Origin: Lysobacteraceae bacterium SCN 69-320
Lineage (GTDB): Bacteria; Pseudomonadota; Gammaproteobacteria; Xanthomonadales; Rhodanobacteraceae
Direction: 5' to 3'
DNA length: 64,000 nucleotides
Assembly (NCBI GenBank): GCA_001725155.1
Contig: MEFP01000018.1
Location: 1 to 64,000, forward strand
Both the position numbers and the translations under genes were made by a program. Of this stretch, positions 22,601 to 63,597 are shown one piece after another (positions within the stretch are counted from its first letter, which is position 1; each line of letters opens with the position of its first letter). The notes below the pieces were generated by a model. That model was not told the origin of the DNA. It made no database searches and saw nothing but the letters and a program-made list of their open reading frames with translations.

Positions 22601-23821
22601 CTATTCGAAGCCGCTGGCAAACACCGCATCGCCGCGTTCGGCGTAGACGTAGAGCTTCAGGTTGCGCGTGCCGGCCGCGGCCGATACCCAGGCCACCTTG
22701 CCGTCGGCCGTCGTGCGCAGCGAGTCGTCGCGATTGCCCCAGCTGATGCCGGACACGTTCTCCGGCGGCGCGAGGTATGCGCCATTGCCGTCGACGAGCG
22801 CGAGCTGGAACGTACTGCCGCTGCGCCAGCCGGCGAGAAAGCGTTCCGGCGCGCTGCTGCCGACGCGCGCAAGCACCGGATCGCGCTCGTTGATGCCGCC
22901 GGTCGTCGTGAGCCAGCTGACTGTCGGCGTGACCGCCGCGCTGGATGTGAAGCTCAGCAGGCCCACACCCTGGGCCGGATAGCTCGGCGTGCCCTGGGCG
23001 ACGAAGGCCAGTTTCCAGGCGGTGTCGCCGGCGGCGAGCTGGCCGAACTGGCCCCAGGCGGTGCCGTCGCAGCTGCCGTCGATGCCGAACAGGTTGCGGC
23101 TGTTGTTGTACAGGATGCCCTTGCTCGCATAGCAGTCCGACAGGCAGATCGCGCTGAACGCGTTCATGCCCGCGTGGAAGCCGACGAGCCCGGCGATCTG
23201 GTGCGAGCAGCCCCAGCTCCAGCCGCCGCTGAGCAGCGCGCCGCTGCTGCTGACATAGGCGAGCTGGTCGCCTTCGTGGCCGTCGTAGTTGCCGCTGGTG
23301 CCATGCACGGCGAAATATGCCGCGTAGCGCGAATTGCCGTAGGCCAGACGCGCGTCGCCGGTATTCATCTGTGCGATCGCGAGCGGGTTGCCGATCGCGG
23401 TCGAGAACAGCGTCGCGTTCGTCGCGCTGCGCCTGGTCAGGCGCAGGGTCGAGTCGGCCGCGCGGCGCAGCAGTACGGCAAAGCTGCCGTCATCGTGCGC
23501 GACCAGGCCGCGTGCTTCCTCGCCGGCATAGTCGAAGGTGCCCGCGATCGCGCCGCTGGCGAGCAGGCTGACATGGCCGTTGCCGCCGTCGTCGGTCCAG
23601 CCCAGCCAGTAGCTGCCGTCGCTGCGCGGTGCGAGATACAGGCGCGGGCCGATGCTGCAGTAGCCGCCGAGGCAGTAGCTCGGCGTCGTGCCGGCCACCG
23701 CGGTGGGCAGGGTCAGCGTGGCCGTCGTGATGCGATCGGCGATGGGACCGGCTGCGACGGCGCCGGCGGCGAACGCGAGGCCGAGGCCGGCCGCGACGAC
23801 AGAACACGAACGAAACCGCAA
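22601..23821 (-). CDS. Secreted protein of unknown function with C-terminal GFE-type tail
   Basis: About 406 residues with a signal peptide (VVAAGLGLAFAAGAVAA) and a repetitive beta-rich body: short blades such as SYWLGWTDDGGNGHVSLL, SFAVLLRRAADSTLRLTR and KVAWVSAAAGTRNLKLYVY suggest a propeller. Six cysteines are present, with the pairs YCLGGYC and CLSDCY. It ends in RGDAVFASGFE, the same type of tail as three other exported proteins in this window. I chose the TTG at 23821 because GGAG lies 8 nt ahead of it; the GTG at 23830 is the alternative. It is divergent from the lamin-tail protein at 24018. Confidence 0.75.
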   Translation of the reverse strand: MRFRSCSVVAAGLGLAFAAGAVAAGPIADRITTATLTLPTAVAGTTPSYCLGGYCSIGPRLYLAPRSDGSYWLGWTDDGGNGHVSLLASGAIAGTFDYAGEEARGLVAHDDGSFAVLLRRAADSTLRLTRRSATNATLFSTAIGNPLAIAQMNTGDARLAYGNSRYAAYFAVHGTSGNYDGHEGDQLAYVSSSGALLSGGWSWGCSHQIAGLVGFHAGMNAFSAICLSDCYASKGILYNNSRNLFGIDGSCDGTAWGQFGQLAAGDTAWKLAFVAQGTPSYPAQGVGLLSFTSSAAVTPTVSWLTTTGGINERDPVLARVGSSAPERFLAGWRSGSTFQLALVDGNGAYLAPPENVSGISWGNRDDSLRTTADGKVAWVSAAAGTRNLKLYVYAERGDAVFASGFE

Positions 23822-24017
23822 CGCGCACACTCCGCACGGACGCGGCCCAGGCCGCCGATCGCCCGATTCTTGCGCAGCCCCGCCGGCCGCGCGTAAGCCC
23901 GGCGTTAATCGCGCGCGCGGCGTGCGGCTTCTGCGGCCGCTGTCACGCTCGCGTCACTGCCCATGGCCAGACTGCGCGGCCGTCGCCGGGCGCCCCGGCT
24001 TGCTGTTGGGGAACTGC

Positions 24018-26597
24018 ATGAGAATCGCCATCGTGATCGCGCTTGCGGCCAGCCTGGCCGGCTGCGCCGATGCGGCCTTCGCCCAGGTGCGCATCACCGA
24101 ATTCATGTACAGCGGCGTCAACGGCGAGTTCGTCGAGATCACCAATACCGGCGCGGCTGCGGTGGATCTGAGCGGCTGGAGCTTCGACGACGACAGCAAT
24201 GTCGCCGGCAGTCTCCCCATCGGCGCGCTGGGCTCCCTCGCGCCGGGCGAGTCGGCTGTGATCACCGAAGCAGTCGCGAGTGATTTCCGCACGGCCTGGG
24301 GCCTGTGTCCGTCGGCCAAGGTCGTCGGTGGCAGCAGCCAGAATCTAGGCCGCAACGACGTGATCAATCTCTACGACGGCAGCGGTGCGCGCGTGGATAC
24401 CTTGCGCTTCGGCGACCAGACCTTCCCGGGCACGATACGCACGCAGAACGTCGCCGGCTGGGTCACGGCTGCGGGCCTCGGCAATGACGCGATCGCGCAG
24501 TGGGCGCTCGCGAGCGTCGGCGACGCGGAGGCCTCGCGCGCCTCGGCCGGCGGCGACATCGGCAGCCCCGGCATCAGCACGCGCAGCGCGCAGCCGTTCG
24601 ATCCCTGCGCGACTGTCGGTCCGCGCATGCGCATCACCGAATACCTCTACGACAGTGCCGACGGCGAGTTCGTCGAGTTCACCAACGTCGGCGATGCGCC
24701 GGCCGACATGAGCGGCTGGAGCTTCGACGACGACAGCAACGCATCGGGCACGATCGCGCTGGGCGCGCTGGGGATCGTGCAGCCCGGCGAATCCGTGCTG
24801 CTGACCGACCAGACGCCGGCCGCGTTCCGCACGGCCTGGGGCCTCTGCGCCGGCGTCAAGGTCGTCGGCGGCAATACGGCCGGCCTTGGCCGCGCCGATC
24901 AGATCAATCTCTACGATGCGGGCGGCGTGCGCGCCGACCGTCTGACCTACGACGACGTGACCATTGTCGGTTCGGTTCGCGCCAAGGACCGCAGCGCCTG
25001 GGTCAGCAGCGCCGGTCTCGGCGCCGATCAGGCGCTCGCGTGGACCCTGTCGGCAACCGGAGATGCGGAAAATTCCACGGCTTCGGCCGCCGGCGCGATC
25101 GGCAGTCCCGGCCGCAGCCGGCGCAGCCTGTTCGACTTCGATCCCTGCGCCGGCACCGCCGGCGCGCCGCAGGTGCAGGTCGACGTCGCGCAGACCACGC
25201 GGCGCCTGGACCTGGCGGTCAACGGCGGCGGCGCGGCCGCGGCGACGTTGAATGACCCGGCCGACCCGGCCGCCGTCGACGGCATCGTGCTCACGTTCGC
25301 CGATCCGGACGGCGATGCCGCGGCGCTGACGATCGCCGCGAGCAGCAGCAACGCCGCCGTCGTGCCCGACAGCGGCCTCGCACTCGGCGGCAGTGGTACC
25401 ACGCGCACCCTGCGCATCACGCCGGCCGGCGCGGGCTACAGCACGATCACCGTGCGTGCGACCGACGCGGACAACCTCGTCGGCAGCTACGTCATCAGCT
25501 ATGCCGCGTCGGCCGCGAACACGGCGGCGGGCGGCTGGTTCACCGGTGCGAGTGATGCCTCGGCCGCGATCGCCGCCGGCGACCACATGCTCGTCGCCGA
25601 CGACGAGAACCAGCGCCTGCGCCTGTATCCGCGCGACCGTTCGGGCCTGGCCGAGAACGGCTTCGACTTCACCGCCTCGCTCGCACTGACCGACATCGAC
25701 GGCGGCGTGCCGCGCGAGGTCGACATCGAGGCCGCCGCGCGCAGCGGCGATCTCGTCTACTGGACCGGCTCGCACTCCAACAAGAAGGACAACGGTGCGG
25801 CGCGGCCGAACCGCCAGCGCATCTTCTCCACGCGCATCGGCGGCAGCGGCGCTGCGACGACCCTGCAGTACGTCGCGCGCTACGACCACCTGCGCACCGA
25901 CCTCGTGAACTGGGACGCCGGCAACGGCCACGGTCTGGGCGCGAATGCGCTGGGTCTGGCCGCGAGCGCTGCGATCGGCGTCTGGCCCGAACGCGACGAC
26001 GGCTTCAACATCGAAGGTCTCGCGCTGGCACCGGCGGCCGATGGTCTCTACATCGCATTCCGCGCGCCGCTGCTGCCGACGACGCAGCGGCGCCAGGCCC
26101 TGCTGATTCACGCGACGAATCTGCGCAGCGTCATTGCCGCGGCGCCGGCCGGCGGTTCGGCCGAGGCCGGCAGCGTGACATTCGCCGCGCCGATCCTGCT
26201 CGATCTCGGCGGTCGCGGCATCCGCGACGTGGTGCGCGCGGCGGACGGTCGTTATCTGATCATTGCAGGACCGACGGCCGTCGCGACCGGCGTCGCGCCG
26301 TCGGATTTCCGCCTGTACCGCTGGAGCGGCGCCCCCGCCGATGCGCCGGTGCTGCTCAATGCCGATCTCGCCACCCTGGCCGCCGCCGGCAGCATCGAAA
26401 CCCTGCTCGACACGGATCTTGGCGGTACGGCGCCGCTGGAACTGCTGACCGACAGCGGCGACACGGTCTGGTATGCCGACGGCATCATCGCGAAGGATCT
26501 GGCCGAGCCGCGCTGGCGCAAGTTCGCCGGCGGCCGGGTCACGCTCGCGATGCCGCCGGACGACCGTCTGTTCGCCGACGGTTTCCAGTCGCCCTGA
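24018..26597 (+). CDS. Secreted protein with two lamin-tail domains, DUF3616-like domain and GFE-type tail
   Basis: An 859-residue exported protein. The signal region contains both LAGC (a possible lipobox, Cys 16) and AFA-Q (a possible ordinary cleavage site), so lipidation is uncertain. Two lamin-tail domains follow in tandem (about residues 24-150 and 205-335), each with RITE(F/Y)xY, GEFVE(I/F)TN, LSGWSFDDDSN-like wording and FRTAWGLC. An Ig-like stretch spans about 360-490. A DUF3616-like propeller region spans about 510-770, recognised by VYWTGSHSNKKD and FNIEGLALAP. The end is DDRLFADGFQSP, a variant of the GFE tail. Lamin-tail domains occur in exported nucleases and surface proteins, but no nuclease domain is present here. 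Confidence 0.82.
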   Translation: MRIAIVIALAASLAGCADAAFAQVRITEFMYSGVNGEFVEITNTGAAAVDLSGWSFDDDSNVAGSLPIGALGSLAPGESAVITEAVASDFRTAWGLCPSAKVVGGSSQNLGRNDVINLYDGSGARVDTLRFGDQTFPGTIRTQNVAGWVTAAGLGNDAIAQWALASVGDAEASRASAGGDIGSPGISTRSAQPFDPCATVGPRMRITEYLYDSADGEFVEFTNVGDAPADMSGWSFDDDSNASGTIALGALGIVQPGESVLLTDQTPAAFRTAWGLCAGVKVVGGNTAGLGRADQINLYDAGGVRADRLTYDDVTIVGSVRAKDRSAWVSSAGLGADQALAWTLSATGDAENSTASAAGAIGSPGRSRRSLFDFDPCAGTAGAPQVQVDVAQTTRRLDLAVNGGGAAAATLNDPADPAAVDGIVLTFADPDGDAAALTIAASSSNAAVVPDSGLALGGSGTTRTLRITPAGAGYSTITVRATDADNLVGSYVISYAASAANTAAGGWFTGASDASAAIAAGDHMLVADDENQRLRLYPRDRSGLAENGFDFTASLALTDIDGGVPREVDIEAAARSGDLVYWTGSHSNKKDNGAARPNRQRIFSTRIGGSGAATTLQYVARYDHLRTDLVNWDAGNGHGLGANALGLAASAAIGVWPERDDGFNIEGLALAPAADGLYIAFRAPLLPTTQRRQALLIHATNLRSVIAAAPAGGSAEAGSVTFAAPILLDLGGRGIRDVVRAADGRYLIIAGPTAVATGVAPSDFRLYRWSGAPADAPVLLNADLATLAAAGSIETLLDTDLGGTAPLELLTDSGDTVWYADGIIAKDLAEPRWRKFAGGRVTLAMPPDDRLFADGFQSP

Positions 26598-41832: not shown

Positions 41833-43985
<2,153 letters not shown>

Positions 43986-55717: not shown

Positions 55718-56734
55718 TCAACCGCCGAAGGCGTCGCGGAAGATCAGGTCCGTGTTCGGCTGCAGGGTCAGGGTCGCGGTGTTGTTGTTCGTGTCCGGGT
55801 CGGTGATCGGCGAGCCGACGACCGCCGTCGCCGAGTTGCCGATGGCGCCGCTGGCGTTCAATGCGAATGTGCCGTTGACCGTATAGGTGGCCAGTCCGCC
55901 CGAGGCCAGCGTGATGGCGTGTGTGATGTTGCCGTTGCCGCTGGCCGGGCAGGTCGCGCCGCTGTTGCCGACGCAGGTCCAGTTCACACCGGTATAGCTG
56001 GCCGGAAACAGGTCGACGACGGTGACGGCGGCCGTAGCCGGGCCGCTGTTGCTGACCGTGACGGTGTAGGCCAGCGGCGCACCGGGTTGATAGGCGGTCG
56101 GGTTCGCACTCATGCCGACGACGACGTCGGCGCTTTGCGGTACGGCCGGGCAGTCGACCACGCCGCGGATGACCCAGTCGCCGGTCAGACCCAGGGTCGC
56201 GCTGTCGAACCAGACGAAGTTCGCGCCGATCTTCGCCAGCAGCGCGTTCCTGCCGGCCTGGATGCCGTTCGAGTCGCGTACGACGCTCGGCGTCGTGTTC
56301 GCGACCGGCGCGTCGAAGAACGTGAATGCGACGACGAACTGTTCGCTGGCCGCCAGCGATACCGCGAGCGGGATCGTGTTGTTCTCGTCGAGGTAGCGCC
56401 ACTCGTTGATGACCCCGTCGGTCAGCACCGGGCCGGCGATTTCCGCGGCGACGGCGCCGGGATTCGGGAAGGTGCCGGCGCGATGGATCGTGATCGAGTC
56501 TTCGATGGCCTGCGGGTTGGTGCTGGTCGGCGACAGCCAGAACACCTGGACGGCGCGCAGAGTGCCCGCGCAGGGCGAAGTCAGCCAGGACGCGGCCGCT
56601 TCGCCGGTCACGAAGCCGTAGACGATGATGCCGGTGCCGCCGTTGCCCAGCGAATCGTTCTGCACCGTCTGTTCTACTGCACCCGCGGTCATGCTGATCA
56701 GCGCCGTTGCCAGCGCAAACGCGCAACGCTTCAT
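55718..56734 (-). CDS. Secreted DUF11-domain protein with GFE-like tail
   Basis: A 338-residue exported protein: signal peptide CAFALATALISMTAGAV, then a beta-rich region of about 190 residues (WRYLDENNTIPLAVSLAASEQFVVAFTF) and one DUF11 domain at about 215-325 (PTAYQPGAPLAYTVTVSNSGPATAAVTVVDLFP, then DPDTNNNTATLTL). It ends in NTDLIFRDAFGG, a diverged form of the D-x-x-F-x-x-G-F-E tail seen in three other exported proteins here. GGGGAG lies ahead of ATG 56734. It is unlike the first gene of the window, which has DUF11 repeats with an IPTL-like membrane anchor. Confidence 0.8.
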   Translation of the reverse strand: MKRCAFALATALISMTAGAVEQTVQNDSLGNGGTGIIVYGFVTGEAAASWLTSPCAGTLRAVQVFWLSPTSTNPQAIEDSITIHRAGTFPNPGAVAAEIAGPVLTDGVINEWRYLDENNTIPLAVSLAASEQFVVAFTFFDAPVANTTPSVVRDSNGIQAGRNALLAKIGANFVWFDSATLGLTGDWVIRGVVDCPAVPQSADVVVGMSANPTAYQPGAPLAYTVTVSNSGPATAAVTVVDLFPASYTGVNWTCVGNSGATCPASGNGNITHAITLASGGLATYTVNGTFALNASGAIGNSATAVVGSPITDPDTNNNTATLTLQPNTDLIFRDAFGG

Positions 56735-58208: not shown

Positions 58209-59048
58209 CTAAGGCTCGAACCCGTTAGCGAACAGCCGATCGCTGAAATCCGGCGGCAGATGCGCCGGATCGAACAGGCAGATCGCCGACGCCGCGACCA
58301 GCGGGCGGGCCCCGTTGCAGCTCCAGTTCAGGCCGTCGACGGCGCCGTCGGCCTGGATGCCGATACAGGCCGAACTGCCGGCGCTGGCATCGAGCGCGGC
58401 GTACTGCAGCGCGATCGCGGCGCTGGAGTGGTAGAGGATGAGGGCCACATCCAGCGCGCCGCTGCTGCCGCTGCGCGACCAGTTCTTCCATTGCACGACG
58501 CTGCAGGCCTCGTCGCCGAGTCCCGACGGGCGCGGACAGCTGGCGAAATAGGCGCTGCGCAGGGTGGCGCCGGCGCCTTCGCCGTCGAGCTCGTCGTGAT
58601 AGGCGAGCACGCGCGCCGCCGCGGCGCGCGCGTTGTCGGGCAGGCTGGGTACATAGGGATCGTTGTTGAAATCGCCGCCGTCTTCCTGACCGGGATCGGC
58701 GGTGAAGGCGAGATAGCCATTGGTCGATACGGCGATGCGCTGCCAGCTTTCGCCGTAGAACGCGAACGGCTGGCTCAGGTCGAGCTCGGCCGCACCGTCG
58801 TCGAGCGCGGTGACCGTACCGCTGGCGGCGATCGGCGCAAGAGCCTGACCGCTGGCCGAGATGTCGATGGCCTGATACGCGCAGACATCCGGCGCCGCGC
58901 TGACGCGATGGCCGTAGGCATCGCCCTGCAGCAGATCGTCGCGGCCGTTGCCGCCGGTGCGCGCCGCCTGCGCCGCGGTCAGCATCGCCGCGGCAGCGGT
59001 CACGGCGAGCAGCGCCGCCCGTGCGAGGAATCCCCGGGACGCGTTCAT
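58209..59048 (-). CDS. Secreted protein with GFE-type tail, last gene of the usher-like operon
   Basis: A 279-residue exported protein (signal ALLAVTAAAAMLTAAQA). The body contains a short beta-rich domain with FAFYGESWQRIAVSTNGYLAFT, a wording seen in NIDO-like or surface lectin-type domains. Four to five cysteines (DVCAYQ, ASCPRP, EACSVVQW, SACIGIQ, WSCNG) may form disulfides. It ends in DRLFANGFEP. Its ATG overlaps the upstream gene stop by 4 nt, so it is translated as part of the operon. The function is unknown; a role as surface component or adhesin is possible given the usher-like gene upstream. Confidence 0.8.
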   Translation of the reverse strand: MNASRGFLARAALLAVTAAAAMLTAAQAARTGGNGRDDLLQGDAYGHRVSAAPDVCAYQAIDISASGQALAPIAASGTVTALDDGAAELDLSQPFAFYGESWQRIAVSTNGYLAFTADPGQEDGGDFNNDPYVPSLPDNARAAAARVLAYHDELDGEGAGATLRSAYFASCPRPSGLGDEACSVVQWKNWSRSGSSGALDVALILYHSSAAIALQYAALDASAGSSACIGIQADGAVDGLNWSCNGARPLVAASAICLFDPAHLPPDFSDRLFANGFEP

Positions 59049-60991
59049 TGCACTCTCCCTTGCCAGACTTCGGGATTGCCGTCGGCGTTGGTGTTGAGGA
59101 AGTTCTCGGGCGACAGGAAGCTGACGACCGGCACGAGGCCGTCCTTGCCGAGGCGTGCGTGGAAGACGAAGGGGCCGCTGGCCAGCAGGTTTTCGCTGTC
59201 GGCGCCGGCCGTCGCGACGCGGCGGCGCCCCACGCTGGTATTGCCGGTGGTGAGTTCAAGGCGCTCGAACGCGTAGTCGGCGCCGTCATAACTCACATCT
59301 ACGCCGAGGTAGTGGCTGTCGGAGCCGTTGGTGCGCTGGCTGAGCCGGGCCGACGCCGAGGCATTGCCGTCCCAGCGGAAGATCTCGTAGCTGTAGTCGG
59401 AGTTGAACACGGTGCCGCTCGGGGTCAGATTTCCGTTGGAAATGAAGAACACGTAGCGGCCGTCCGTGCTGCCGTCGAGCACGGCCATGGAGTTCTGCGT
59501 GATCTGTGCGGCGCTGCCGTTGTTCGTCGTCGTGGTGACCTGGGCGTAGGTGCCCGAACCGTTGCGGTCGTAGCGGAAGATCTCGTAGTTGCCGTCGGCG
59601 TTGCCGCCGGAGACGGGCTGGCAATTCGATTCGAATACGAGGAAACGGCCGTTCGCGTTCCTGGTCAGGCGCGGGCCGCGCGCCTCCCGGGGCGGCGTCG
59701 CCGTCGGGCACAAGCTATTGGCCGGGATCACGGTATTGGTCGTGCCGGAACGCACGATGATGCGCCGCGCGGTGCCGGCGCCGGTCAGCGCGTTGCAGTC
59801 GGACACCCAGGCCAGGACGCCGCCGTCGCCGTCCAGGGTCGGGTCGGTGTTGCTGCAGCCGCTGGTCGTCGTCACTGTGGTCAGCGCGCTGGTACTGCGG
59901 TCGTAGAGATAGATCTCGTAGTTGTCGGTTTCGGTCATGCGCGCCGAAAAGGCGATATAGCGGCCATACAGGCTGTTGGCGAGGTCGCCGGAGATCGCGA
60001 TGTTCTGCATCTGGCCGCCGAGGGTCATCTGTGTCGTGCCGGTCCAGGCGGCGCGCGTGAAGCTCAGGCCGTTCCAGATGTAGATCTGGTCGAGCAGGTT
60101 GGCATTGCCGCCGAGGTCGGCGCTGCTGATGAACGCGACCGTGCGGCCGTTGCTGTCCACGGCCAGCGCGCGCGCGGCGGCCGAGCGGGTGAAGAAGCCG
60201 CCGCCTTTGATGTCGACCGCGCGGCCGCTGGTGCTGGTCAACTGCACGATGGTGCCGACTTCGGTACAGGAGCTCTTGATCTCGACGTTGTCGACGAACA
60301 GGGTCGAGTCGACCTGGTGGTCGTTCTGGTCGGCCGCGGTGAAGCGCAGGGTGACCGAGCTGCCGGCGGTCAGCCCCGACGGTAGCGGCAGGCAGATGCG
60401 CTGGAAAGCCGGCGAGCCGAAACGCAGGTTGATGCCGCGCAGCGCGGTGGTCGCGGTGTTGTTGACCGTGTGGTCGACGACGGTCGCGTTCTGGCAGTTT
60501 GCGTTCGGGAACGGCGAATAGCTCGATCCGTTCAGCTTGCAGCTCGAACGCGTCATGATGCGTGTGCCGTTGACGGTCACGTCCATGAGGTCGTCGTACT
60601 GGTCGGCCTCGTTCTGCTCGCCGGAGGCGAAGCCCCAGTCGAAGGCGACGTAGGCGGCGTTGGCGGGCAGCGTGAATGTGCTCTGCAGCCAGCTCAGGTC
60701 GTAGTCGTTGTTGCCGCCGAGATTGTCGAAGTTGGTCGCGCCGGTGGTGCCGGTAGCCTGTTCGCCCGGGCCGGTGGAAATGGCGGCGGCCCAGGTGCCG
60801 TCGGGAATCGTCAGCGAGGTGTTCGGCGTGATGTTGCTCGCGCGGATCGCGCCGGCACGGTTGTAGCCGCCGGTGCTCCAGCCGGTCAGGTCGCCGGTCT
60901 CGAAACTGCCGTTCGTGGGCACCTGTGACCAGGTTGCGGCAGAAACTGCCGAGAGCAGCAGGAACAGCGTGGTGCGGCCGTAGCGCGTCAT
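59045..60991 (-). CDS. Secreted protein with N-terminal jelly-roll-like domain and PD40/TolB-like propeller
   Basis: A 648-residue exported protein. After the signal peptide (TTLFLLLSAVSAATWS) comes a domain opening with NGSFETGDLTGWSTGGYN (about residues 25-235), the wording of carbohydrate-binding-like jelly rolls in surface proteins. From residue 250 a propeller follows, with repeated units: NYEIYLYDRSTSALTTVT, NYEIFRYDRNGSGTYAQVT, SYEIFRWDGNASASARLS. These repeat strands resemble TolB-type PD40 blades. It ends NPEVWQGRVQ and has no GFE tail. The start and stop overlap both neighbours by ATGA, so it is fully coupled to the usher-like gene. Confidence 0.83.
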   Translation of the reverse strand: MTRYGRTTLFLLLSAVSAATWSQVPTNGSFETGDLTGWSTGGYNRAGAIRASNITPNTSLTIPDGTWAAAISTGPGEQATGTTGATNFDNLGGNNDYDLSWLQSTFTLPANAAYVAFDWGFASGEQNEADQYDDLMDVTVNGTRIMTRSSCKLNGSSYSPFPNANCQNATVVDHTVNNTATTALRGINLRFGSPAFQRICLPLPSGLTAGSSVTLRFTAADQNDHQVDSTLFVDNVEIKSSCTEVGTIVQLTSTSGRAVDIKGGGFFTRSAAARALAVDSNGRTVAFISSADLGGNANLLDQIYIWNGLSFTRAAWTGTTQMTLGGQMQNIAISGDLANSLYGRYIAFSARMTETDNYEIYLYDRSTSALTTVTTTSGCSNTDPTLDGDGGVLAWVSDCNALTGAGTARRIIVRSGTTNTVIPANSLCPTATPPREARGPRLTRNANGRFLVFESNCQPVSGGNADGNYEIFRYDRNGSGTYAQVTTTTNNGSAAQITQNSMAVLDGSTDGRYVFFISNGNLTPSGTVFNSDYSYEIFRWDGNASASARLSQRTNGSDSHYLGVDVSYDGADYAFERLELTTGNTSVGRRRVATAGADSENLLASGPFVFHARLGKDGLVPVVSFLSPENFLNTNADGNPEVWQGRVQ

Positions 60992-63597
60992 GGCGTGGAC
61001 TCCGGCGTCGGTGGGCGGGTCAGGTCTTGCTGGAACAGGAAGGCGCCTTCCAGGGACAGCGCACGCTCGGCGGCGACGTGGCCGTCGCCGGCGACGAGCT
61101 CCAGGCGATAGCGGCCGCGCGGCAGGCCGTCGAGGCGGTAGTAGCCGATGGCGTTGACCGGCGTGCGCGCGACTTCGCGTTCGCCGTCGATCGCGCGCAC
61201 GGTCCAGCCGGCGGCCTCGCGGCCGGCGAAGCCGGCGCAGCCCAGGCGCGCGTTGAGGCCGAATCCCAGCGGCGTGGTCGAGCCGGCGCGCACTTCGACG
61301 TTGCGTGTCGCGTCGGCGGGATTGAGTTCGATCGGCAGGTTCTCGGTGTCCAGCGCGACGCGGTGCACGCCGGGTGCAAGACGCGGCAGCAGCGCGCGGC
61401 CGTCGATGTCGAGTTCGCCGCGGACCTGGCCGTCGACGAGCACGCCGACGCCGCGCAGGCTGGCGACGGCGATGCCCGGCGGCAGCTTGCCGGCATCGAC
61501 ATGCGCCGCGATCGCGCCGACGCGGCGCTGTTCGGTGCTGAACGCGCCGCGGGTCAGGCCGCTGGGCGTGACGGCGAAGTCGGCGGTCAGCGACAGCGAG
61601 ATCACGCGCGTGTCGTTGCTGTTGCGGCCGTACAGCGGATCGTCCTGCATCTGCAGGCGCGCATTCAGGCCCGGACGCAGCTCCAGTCCCGCGTCGACGA
61701 TCGCGCCGAAGCGGCTTTGCGCGTGCAGCGCGCCGACGCCCCACCACCAGCCGTAGCGGTTTTCGGGGCGGCGATAGAGCACGGCGGATTCGCGCCGGCC
61801 GTAGGCGTCGTCGTCGACCACGGCCGCGGTCAGGTCGAAGCGCGTGCCGAGTTCCTGCTGCCAGTCGAGCTGGCGGCGGCCCGCGTAGCGCGAGGCGCTG
61901 AGCCGCGTGCCGCGCAGGGGCTGCCAGCTCGCCGCATAGGCATAGTCGCCGAGGTAGTCGGGCCGCGCCGAGATCCAGACGTTGTCGAACGGCTGCGCGC
62001 TGAGCGCCGGCTTGAGATAGCGTCCGTCGCCGAGATTGGCGTCGGTGAAGTCGCGCGCGACCAGGCTCAGGCGAAGGCGCGGCTGCTGCCAGCCGAATTC
62101 GAGCTGATGGTCGTGGCGCTCGGGGCTGGCGTTGCCGAAATAGTCGCGCTGGAAATCGCGCAGGCTGGCCAGCCAGAACACGTTGCCGCGGGCGCCTTCG
62201 CCGAGCAGTTCGGCCGCGCCGGCGTCGTTGCTGCGCGCGACATGGCCAGACCAGACGCCGGCACGGCCGAGATTGACCGCGGCGCCGGCGCTGGCGAAGT
62301 CCTGGCCCGATGCGCGCGCCAGCGCCGCATCGACGCTGAGGCGCGGACTGATGCCGGCGCGCACGCGCGCAAAACCGGCGCCGCCGCTCAAGGTGTCAGT
62401 GTCGTCCAGCGGGTTGTCCTGGCTGCCGGCGCCGGCATGGACCACGTAGGTGCCGCCGGCGAGCAGGTCGTCACTGGCGCGCAACGTCACTTGTTCGACG
62501 CGCACGGGAACATCGTTGCTGGCCGGTTTGTACAGCGCGATCTCCAGCACCGCGTCGGCGGGCAGGCCGGTGATCTCGGGAAACCGGTAGTGGCCGTCCA
62601 GGCGCACGATGGTGCGTGCGACGACGCTGCCGTTGGCGCGCAGTTCGGCAATGCCGCCGGGCGGACCGTCGCCCTGGATCTGGCGCCCGGTCGCGAGGCG
62701 GCCGGCGACGATCTCGTTGCCGACCACGTGATCGCCGAAGGCGAGTTCGGGGCGGTTGCTGTAGGCCCACTGCGCACCGCTCAGCGGAAACGACGGCAGC
62801 AGCGAGCTCAAGGTGACCTGTTGCTGGCCGAGGTACCAGCGCGAGCGGCCGCGGTCGATCAGCCAGCCCCATTCGTCGATGCGCCGGCTGCCGTCGAGAT
62901 CGTCGAAATAGCGCAGATGCCAGTTGCCGTCGCCGAGCGCGCCGCCGAGTTCGGTCAGGGTCGTCGCATCGGTGCGGCTGCCCGCATGCCGCAGCAGCGC
63001 CTCGCTGCGCCAGGCCGACAGGTTGGCGCGCGGTGCCGGCACGTCGACGGGCAGGGTCTCGCGCGTCGGCGGCGCGGCGCCGGACGCGCTCTGTTCCAGC
63101 CAGGCGCCGCTGGCGCGCAGTGCAAATTCGCCGCGGTCGAAGCTCAGTGCGAGGCCGAGCGCGGCGCCGACATCCTCGAGCGCGGCGTAGTCGATCTCGG
63201 CGATGCGCGTGACGGATGCGCGCGGGAGCACGGCCTCGCCGATCGGTGTGGCAATGCGCCAGGCATCGGCGTCGCGCCGCGCGTGCAGGCCCAGCGCGTC
63301 GCAGAACATGCCGACCGCTAGCTTGCTGCGCCCGTCCAGTTCGCCGTCGAGCACGGCGACTTCGCGTGCGCGTTCCTTGCCGTTGACGAGCAGGCCGACC
63401 AGCAGCGCCGCTGACGAGCTGCGGCCGTCGCTGCTGCGCAGGAACGGAAAATCCGGGCCGCTGGCTTCCGGCGACGGGCCGGGGGTTGGCGCCGGTGCCG
63501 GCGCCGCGGCCGCGGCGCCGGCCAGCGCCGCGCCGATCGCAGCGCAGAGCCAGCGGCTGCGCCGCTGCCGGCGTGGCGGTAGCGTCGGCGGCGTCAT
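60988..63597 (-). CDS. Usher-like outer-membrane protein (fimbrial usher family, divergent)
   Basis: An 869-residue exported protein, close to the usual usher length of 800-870. A signal region (WLCAAIGAALAGAAAAA) and a Pro/Ala linker precede an N-terminal domain (ALLVGLLVNGKERAREVAVLDGELDGRS) like the usher periplasmic domain. The centre has GPPGGIAELRANGSVVAR and DGHYRFPEITGLPADAVLEI, the wording of the usher plug. A barrel region with many aromatic beta strands follows (GNVFWLASLRDFQRDYFG). The C-terminus has GVGVLVDGQVRGELDIDGRALLP, as in usher C-terminal domains. Similarity is by pattern only, and specificity is unknown. It starts 2 bp before the stop of the chaperone-like gene. Confidence 0.72.
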   Translation of the reverse strand: MTPPTLPPRRQRRSRWLCAAIGAALAGAAAAAPAPAPTPGPSPEASGPDFPFLRSSDGRSSSAALLVGLLVNGKERAREVAVLDGELDGRSKLAVGMFCDALGLHARRDADAWRIATPIGEAVLPRASVTRIAEIDYAALEDVGAALGLALSFDRGEFALRASGAWLEQSASGAAPPTRETLPVDVPAPRANLSAWRSEALLRHAGSRTDATTLTELGGALGDGNWHLRYFDDLDGSRRIDEWGWLIDRGRSRWYLGQQQVTLSSLLPSFPLSGAQWAYSNRPELAFGDHVVGNEIVAGRLATGRQIQGDGPPGGIAELRANGSVVARTIVRLDGHYRFPEITGLPADAVLEIALYKPASNDVPVRVEQVTLRASDDLLAGGTYVVHAGAGSQDNPLDDTDTLSGGAGFARVRAGISPRLSVDAALARASGQDFASAGAAVNLGRAGVWSGHVARSNDAGAAELLGEGARGNVFWLASLRDFQRDYFGNASPERHDHQLEFGWQQPRLRLSLVARDFTDANLGDGRYLKPALSAQPFDNVWISARPDYLGDYAYAASWQPLRGTRLSASRYAGRRQLDWQQELGTRFDLTAAVVDDDAYGRRESAVLYRRPENRYGWWWGVGALHAQSRFGAIVDAGLELRPGLNARLQMQDDPLYGRNSNDTRVISLSLTADFAVTPSGLTRGAFSTEQRRVGAIAAHVDAGKLPPGIAVASLRGVGVLVDGQVRGELDIDGRALLPRLAPGVHRVALDTENLPIELNPADATRNVEVRAGSTTPLGFGLNARLGCAGFAGREAAGWTVRAIDGEREVARTPVNAIGYYRLDGLPRGRYRLELVAGDGHVAAERALSLEGAFLFQQDLTRPPTPESTP

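Follow-up and report, generated by a model that had tools for sequence, protein, structure and literature searches.

Several sorting signals of exported proteins have been described. PEP-CTERM, IPTL-CTERM and MYXO-CTERM signals carry a transmembrane segment, and the type IX secretion C-terminal domain (CTD) of Bacteroidota is a soluble C-terminal signal, folded and about 80 residues long, which acts after export across the inner membrane. The GlyGly-CTERM signal combines a motif rich in glycine with a hydrophobic region and a basic end (PMC6219818), and it occurs on cargo of the type II secretion system (T2SS) such as VesB (PMC12369372). In this study, we analyzed a tail of nine residues, D-x-h-F-x-x-G-F-[EQ] (h, hydrophobic; the strict motif), found on exported proteins encoded in a stretch of 64,000 nucleotides of Lysobacteraceae bacterium SCN 69-320; this stretch (the window) comprises bases 1-64000 of contig C18 of the 5.71-Mb, 30-contig source genome, labeled G000. 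Other labels denote genomes (G), loci or stretches (L), families (f), genera (g), and contigs (C).

Like the signal of the GlyGly-CTERM/rhombosortase system, the tail is a C-terminal module on many unrelated exported enzymes, and some of the bodies match the rhombosortase-dependent M36 model; unlike that signal, it has no glycine-rich motif, hydrophobic region, or basic end within its nine residues. It shares with PEP-CTERM, IPTL-CTERM, and MYXO-CTERM the use of one tag on many exported proteins, some with choice-of-anchor domains, but it is soluble, lacks a transmembrane segment and their signature motifs, and can be N-terminal. Its length does not fit the type IX CTD, and it belongs to Lysobacterales rather than Bacteroidota.

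T2SS substrates such as VesB and PelI/Pel3 resemble the tail-bearing proteins in being exported and presumably folded cargo, and GspC proteins with HR and PDZ domains were observed among carriers of the tail. No common linear signal has been found on T2SS cargo, only structural loops or Ig folds, as described in PMC12369372 and PMC7949064; the EpsC PDZ domain is required for VesB secretion in Vibrio cholerae, and the same paper stresses that there is no linear universal signal (PMC12369372). In contrast, the present motif is linear and occurs on dozens of putative cargo proteins. In Delftia and Paracidovorax, the S-layer protein is NpdA, which has no conserved domains and is encoded beside a gsp cluster (PMC10765051, PMC3110197). 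P. citrulli has two gsp clusters, and the reported npdA carriers include Tahibacter amnicola, Dokdonella, and Rudaea, and also Rhodanobacter denitrificans and Lysobacter (PMC10765051); Rudaea cellulosilytica DSM 22992 is among the cultures imaged there by cryo-EM. As in this S-layer/nanopod system of Comamonadaceae, a putative S-layer-type gene lies beside a gsp cluster here, with two gsp clusters per genome (PMC10765051); unlike it, the present cluster runs on with genes for a PPIC-type isomerase (PPIase) and Wzm/Wzt, and the accessible text of PMC10765051 mentions no tail. No earlier description of the tail was found in the literature searched, which omits most subscription journals.

The tail in the window and its source genome

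The original prediction had seen four similar ends on proteins of the window; the tail is real and more widespread than that. The strict motif, written as the pattern D.hF..GF[EQ], has 51 matches in G000 compared with 1 for the reversed pattern, and the looser pattern F..GF[EQ] has 110 compared with 18. We analyzed the window and 80 stretches of 6-14 kb around listed matches, out of 83 merged G000 stretches; the stretches were centered on F..GF[EQ] matches regardless of their nearness to a stop codon, and ten further G000 pattern matches lie outside them. In the frames of the stretches and the window, 53 of 97 occurrences of F..GF[EQ] are at most 11 residues from the stop, including a few in frames that are short and spurious. 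The positions of the motif and the bodies were counted with a retrained gene caller, and 39 of 40 strict motifs in predicted genes lie at most 12 residues from the C-terminus, compared with 6% expected (binomial p 9e-47), so the motif is not as frequent internally as at C-termini. The 39 tail-bearing bodies fall into 30 single-linkage clusters, and last-domain homology does not explain the tails. An origin of the similarity by chance, or by shared descent of the last domain, is ruled out by the comparison with the reversed pattern and by the number of clusters; nothing was found in its favor, and its probability is negligible.

The distance between tag and stop is 0-12 residues, and 33 of the 39 proteins end 0-2 residues after the motif. 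R is the commonest residue at position 2 (16/39) and A at position 5 (22/39); position 3 is I, L, or V, position 6 is mainly N, D, or S (35/39), and position 9 is Q in 20 proteins and E in 19.

All four ends were located in the window as originally quoted, three on the minus strand and one on the plus strand:

22601-23830, minus strand: exported protein of 409 aa with a GTG start, no Pfam or NCBIfam match; bears the tail
22604-22630, minus strand: tail DAVFASGFE, abutting the stop codon (22601-22603)
24018-26597, plus strand: exported protein of 859 aa, with two Lamin Tail Domain (LTD) stretches and DUF3616; bears the tail
26562-26588, plus strand: tail DRLFADGFQ, followed by SP and the stop
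55718-56734, minus strand: exported protein of 338 aa with a C-terminal DUF11 domain; bears the diverged tail
55724-55750, minus strand: diverged tail DLIFRDAFG, followed by G and the stop; outside the strict motif
58209-59048, minus strand: exported protein of 279 aa, no Pfam match; bears the tail
58215-58241, minus strand: tail DRLFANGFE, followed by P and the stop

The gene first placed at 22601-23821 is present, but its GTG start is at 23830 instead. Only these four tails were returned when all six frames of the window were searched for [IVLF]F..[GA]F over the final 25 residues of frames of at least 60 aa. As had been claimed, all four proteins have signal-peptide-like starts, and none has a hydrophobic terminal segment that could serve as a membrane anchor. 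They were also rightly called unrelated, sharing no Pfam domain (LTD twice with DUF3616 in one, DUF11 in another, and two unmatched at E 1). The fourth tail is present and plausible but weaker, as it does not match the strict motif; one other end resembling it was found in G000, ADLLFADAFGID (L016). Single-sequence folding was uninformative for the proteins at 22601-23830 and 58209-59048 (mean predicted local distance difference test scores of 39.5 and 35.7).

An IPTL-CTERM signal had also been reported in the window. Two weak IPTL-like ends were observed in the plus-strand proteins at 1-1206 and 41857-42600, and an exact IPTL near a stop was not found. These proteins have PVPGTSVW- or VPALSW-like ends followed by a hydrophobic helix and arginines, similar to IPTL-CTERM, and therefore helix-type signals may coexist with the tail. 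On the strand of the tail gene at 58209-59048, two genes for exported-looking proteins precede it (58209-63597, minus strand), and a similar trio including a tail protein is present in G005, of another family (L083), where the BLAST comparison covered the tail protein only.

Bodies, export signals, and position of the tail

The bodies were characterized by scanning 51 tail or tail-like proteins with Pfam and NCBIfam. Among the best 25 of the 82 Pfam families matched were BNR, sortilin, DUF11, DUF5122, fn3, beta-helix, RCC1, and Endonuclease_1 (PF04231), together with reprolysin, LTD, GH44, peptidase M14, and peptidase S8. At E 0.01, with the curated cut-offs not applied, the NCBIfam choice-of-anchor models Q, J, and D matched 3, 2, and 1 of the 51 proteins, the rhombosortase-dependent and myxosortase-dependent M36 models matched 3 and 2, and the MYXO-CTERM family model matched 1. 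No CTERM-signal model was among the best 25 of the 59 NCBIfam families matched by these proteins. Some of the bodies match models of families with sorting signals elsewhere, so the tail in part occupies the place of the sorting signals of other lineages.

A signal peptide is possible, by a permissive heuristic, in 36 of the 39 genes with the strict tail, compared with 195 of 428 other genes, a background that excludes 42 genes truncated by the ends of stretches. Two stricter heuristics gave 24/39 versus 133/470 and 26/39 versus 179/470. By the permissive heuristic, most of the proteins thus have the Sec or Tat signal peptide expected of T2SS substrates, and the signals of the proteins in L071 and L068 were judged by eye to be Tat-like. 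No membrane helix, glycine-rich motif, or basic cluster was seen in the tail sequences inspected.

The original prediction had suggested that the tail is a signal for sorting, secretion, or anchoring, other than IPTL-CTERM. The shared end on unrelated exported proteins, some from families with sorting signals, agrees with this proposal, but the tail is not strictly C-terminal: the motif or a variant of it is N-terminal in four proteins of four genomes. The strict motif stands just after a signal-peptide-like start in G063 (L242) and G097 (L312), and variants stand there in a DUF1800 protein of G005 (L082, without D) and an FGE-sulfatase protein of G099 (L087, R for G). The scan of all loci returned four N-terminal cases, including L318, which was rejected as spurious, and L087 was found in another survey. 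In addition, the motif of a G000 subtilase (L079) lies 207 residues before the end. In the homologue of the 58209-59048 protein in G005 (39% identity), the tag is kept while the linker is longer and proline-rich. The N-terminal copies and the varying linker are easier to reconcile with a docking peptide that is linear and flexible than with cleavage by a C-terminus-specific protease. Overall, the tail is probably a sorting or docking tag of some kind.

Longer forms of the C-terminal region were also observed. L052 and L079 of G000, L118, and L165 have an extra region of 70-207 residues after the motif, as if a domain had been appended, and the protein at L088:8315-10066 in G104 has a longer tail form, DDIFTDGFESGDTSAWTTTVP, at its C-terminus, which resembles the start of a beta-sandwich domain.

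The neighbors of tail genes were surveyed with rough gene lists from an untrained caller, which were also used for the N-terminal cases, the 207-residue subtilase case, and some T2SS loci; loci lacking a mapped source were counted together as one source. Ser/Thr kinases with tetratricopeptide (TPR) repeats recur in 12 sources (for example, L169:3790-6540, L217, and L089; Pfam was checked for L169 only), and by eye extracytoplasmic function (ECF)-like sigma factors and winged-helix TPR regulators also recur. These neighbors suggest a shared regulatory style for tail genes. Kinases and regulators, but no protease or sortase, recur among the neighbors surveyed, and an adjacent reading machine was rejected.

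Type II secretion and an npdA-like gene as candidate readers

The tail may be a portable address tag read by T2SS and/or an S-layered surface, a reading to which we assign a probability approaching even; we infer its function, its binding, the localization of tagged proteins, and the reading component from co-occurrence. We scanned 299 genomes of the order and defined tail-rich genomes as those with at least five strict motif matches; the counts per genome are pattern matches, and loci were read for much of G000, 13 matches of G063, and 8 of G097. By this definition, 89 of the 299 genomes are tail-rich. The tail is nearly all-or-none by genus; in f1, g1, g3, g12, and g14 have 22-64 matches and other genera 0-2. 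A longer form, F..GFESG, was rejected as the missing signal of f10 g31, where it is not enriched. In a phylum sample of 398 genomes, none of the 389 from outside the order has more than 8 matches. Matches were read in four (G370, G342, G410, and G304) of the six of these genomes with at least 4, the other two being G480 and G673, and only 1 of 22 looks like a tail, terminating a frame of at least 100 aa (L320, a 106-aa frame). The named genomes among the matches listed (80 of at least 119 stretches) are mostly Lysobacterales (Tahibacter, Pseudofulvimonas, Rudaea, Marinicella) and metagenome-assembled genomes (MAGs) named Alcanivoracaceae; the places of the matches in one such MAG are identical to those in G008 (f9, in the order). 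A few listed matches carry other names, taken as recorded: Acinetobacter, Desulfobacteraceae, Pelagibacteraceae, and Pseudomonadales.

GspD was searched over a panel of 65 genome handles (L153 and G008 are the same genome) and was above the cut-off in 63, in carriers and non-carriers alike. The search suggested two secretin types, and the loci and a secretin tree divide T2SS-A from T2SS-B. T2SS-A lies at about 168-172 kb of contig C3 in G000, adjoins rho-trxA-rhlB, and includes GspC with HR and PDZ domains. Its layout is gspC-D-E, with rho-trxA-rhlB adjoining in 9 of 13 T2SS-A loci read and gspF next to it in some genomes and elsewhere in others, including G000. All five GspC-type proteins scanned have the T2SSC domain and PDZ-type matches, which exceed a PDZ cut-off in three; one of the five, from G227, is outside the T2SS-A clade. 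When GspC was scored by the T2SSC profile PF11356 at E 1e-12 or better, it was detected in 80 of the 89 tail-rich genomes versus 38 of the 210 others. It is present in 10/10 tail-rich genomes of f1 and absent in 63/66 others, and present in 2/2 tail-rich genomes of f2 and absent in 75/76 others. Of the apparent f1 exceptions, G255 has its secretin inside the 14-row T2SS-A clade, and G227 and G273 have theirs outside it. Six of the nine misses among tail-rich genomes are assemblies 60-94% complete.

The tail-rich genome G063, where T2SS-A was not found, led us to the T2SS-B locus. In G000, the T2SS-B cluster lies at about 138-158 kb of contig C1, where the secretin gene is followed by an npdA-like gene and by genes for polysaccharide export through Wzm/Wzt; secretins of the f2 genomes G101, G175, and G054 also fall into the T2SS-B clade. 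All six tail-rich T2SS-B loci examined (G000, G022, G063, G064, G091, and G237) have a conserved gene order 3' of gspD: a small lipoprotein, the npdA-like protein, a tail-less exported protein, the PPIase, Wzm, Wzt, and a methyltransferase. The cluster genes tested 3' of gspD are absent in 5/5 tail-poor T2SS-B loci, in which 3.6-9 kb beyond gspD was covered. A profile built from six npdA-like proteins matched 86 of the 89 tail-rich genomes versus 52 of the 210 others, and the three misses are G045, G076, and G133 (80, 67, and 84% complete). The only match in the plasmid collection, to a 'cell surface protein' of Comamonas, has an identity of 30.8% across 76%.

The number of npdA-like matches per genome, with at most five candidates scored, reaches 5 in some tail-rich genomes (G000, G289, and several of f9 g44) and is 1 or 2 in most tail-poor ones. 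In six loci (L222:13157-14386, and the same position in L224, L226, L228, L230, and L235), the npdA-like gene and the PPIase gene are separated by a gene for a tail-less exported protein of about 330-450 aa; the L222 copy has no Pfam or NCBIfam match.

When the genomes are divided by the two systems, tail-rich ones make up 77/104 of those with both, 9/34 of those with the npdA-like gene only, 3/14 of those with GspC only, and 0/147 of those with neither (Fisher p 1e-32 for GspC and 4e-34 for the npdA-like gene, kinship ignored). The npdA-like gene therefore looks necessary and T2SS-A usual.

Under this reading, D-x-[ILV]-F-x-[NDS]-G-F-[EQ] would act as a portable address label. Tagged proteins would cross the inner membrane via Sec or Tat and fold in the periplasm, with the tag exposed on a linker of varying length; its place would usually be the C-terminus and sometimes the N-terminus of the mature protein. 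After folding, a T2SS component or the S-layer/polysaccharide surface would recognize the tag as a linear peptide. Bound cargo would then be passed out by T2SS and/or retained at the S-layered surface, so that tagged enzymes and beta-rich proteins would be displayed or released. The leading candidate readers are parts of the T2SS-B cluster (npdA-like, Wzm/Wzt) and T2SS-A (GspC HR and PDZ) of G000. The variable distance between tag and stop argues against classical PDZ binding of a free C-terminus.

Weighing the alternatives

Several observations weigh against reading by T2SS and/or an S-layered surface. The npdA-like protein is a putative NpdA, of S-layer type, by its neighborhood, size, absence of domains, organism list, and the Comamonas match rather than by the NpdA sequence. 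Its 52 tail-poor carriers belong to f10 (24), f8 (23), f1 (2), f7 (2), and f6 (1), and those in f1, G046 and G267, have one motif match each. GspC was not found in the tail-rich f8 genomes G063, G097, and G122 (97, 98, and 88% complete), which look like real exceptions and contradict T2SS-A as sole reader; the tails of G063 and G097, where read, are mainly C-terminal, and in f8 overall GspC is present in 2/6 tail-rich genomes and 4/33 others. Most genomes of f10 g31 have both systems and yet only 0-4 motif matches, so neither system is sufficient, and some additional factor of the lineage is likely. The neighbors of tail genes in G000 and few-copy genomes included no protease or sortase that recurs. 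Profiling covered three candidate families and one control, and another gene may match the tail better.

Kinship also reduces the strength of the association. An RpoB tree was built from 40 of the 299 genomes, picked so as to represent the families and the exceptions; on it, the state of the tail switches 9 times, and 8 independent pairs differ in the tail. Over these pairs, the npdA-like gene agrees in 2.5, opposes in 0, and shows no difference in 5.5; the values are 3.2, 0.3, and 4.5 for GspC and 3.5, 0.3, and 4.2 for both systems. None of the sign tests was significant, and the tree-based link of T2SS and the npdA-like gene with the tail is suggestive. In G019, rpoB is split over two adjacent frames (G019:C1:576375-580425) and the RpoB branch is very long; this genome has no GspD match, no npdA-like match among those listed, and 0 motif matches.

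The small number of independent events and the near absence of the motif in f10 g31 would also suit an order-specific receptor or processing enzyme that reads the tag, with T2SS-A and the npdA-like cluster as ancestral content lost alongside it in much of f1 and f2. The same is true of the lack of any convincing tail-rich genome among the 389 outside the order, where npdA-bearing genera are reported (PMC10765051). Such a reader is quite possible but short of probable, as only three tail-rich genomes, all of them incomplete assemblies, have no npdA-like match, and the npdA-like gene is present in G063, G097, and G122, where GspC was not found. The tag could instead have a structural role, in which a short hairpin or an edge strand would cap beta-rich exported domains or shield the C-terminus from tail-specific proteases of the periplasm; a turn of Asn-Gly or Asp-Gly between aromatics would suit a small hairpin, and many bodies come from beta-rich families. 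However, proteases, nucleases, and a glycosidase are also among the bodies, the tail is near all-or-none by genus, the tag is kept while the linker length varies between homologues, and N-terminal copies exist, which together make a structural role improbable.

A target of a known sortase system (rhombosortase, exosortase, or myxosortase) would explain the matches of some bodies to models of sortase-dependent families. It is very improbable, since the tails have no membrane segment or basic cluster and N-terminal copies occur. Rhombosortase, the sortase covered by the search, is above the curated cut-off in 3 of the 65 panel genomes, of which only G097 is tail-rich and G000 is not one, and weaker rhomboid-type matches are found in 65/65; rhombosortase does not track the tail and was rejected as the reader. 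In G227 (C47; L232), a tail-less genome of the same family, a separate T2SS cluster adjoins a rhombosortase above the curated cut-off.

Reading of the tail by T2SS and/or an S-layered surface could, in its fullest form, make it the first portable linear T2SS/S-layer signal, in which nine residues at either end of a folded protein hand unrelated cargo to a secretion machine or dock it on an NpdA-type S-layer in Lysobacterales; we consider this full claim doubtful. The choice of cargo by T2SS is an open question, which can be approached directly through a motif carried by about 50 proteins of a single genome. The motif is short and can be transplanted, deleted, or used as bait. Annotators could also use it to list, by sequence alone, proteins that may lie at the surface in Tahibacter, Pseudofulvimonas, Rudaea, Marinicella, and many uncultured Lysobacterales.

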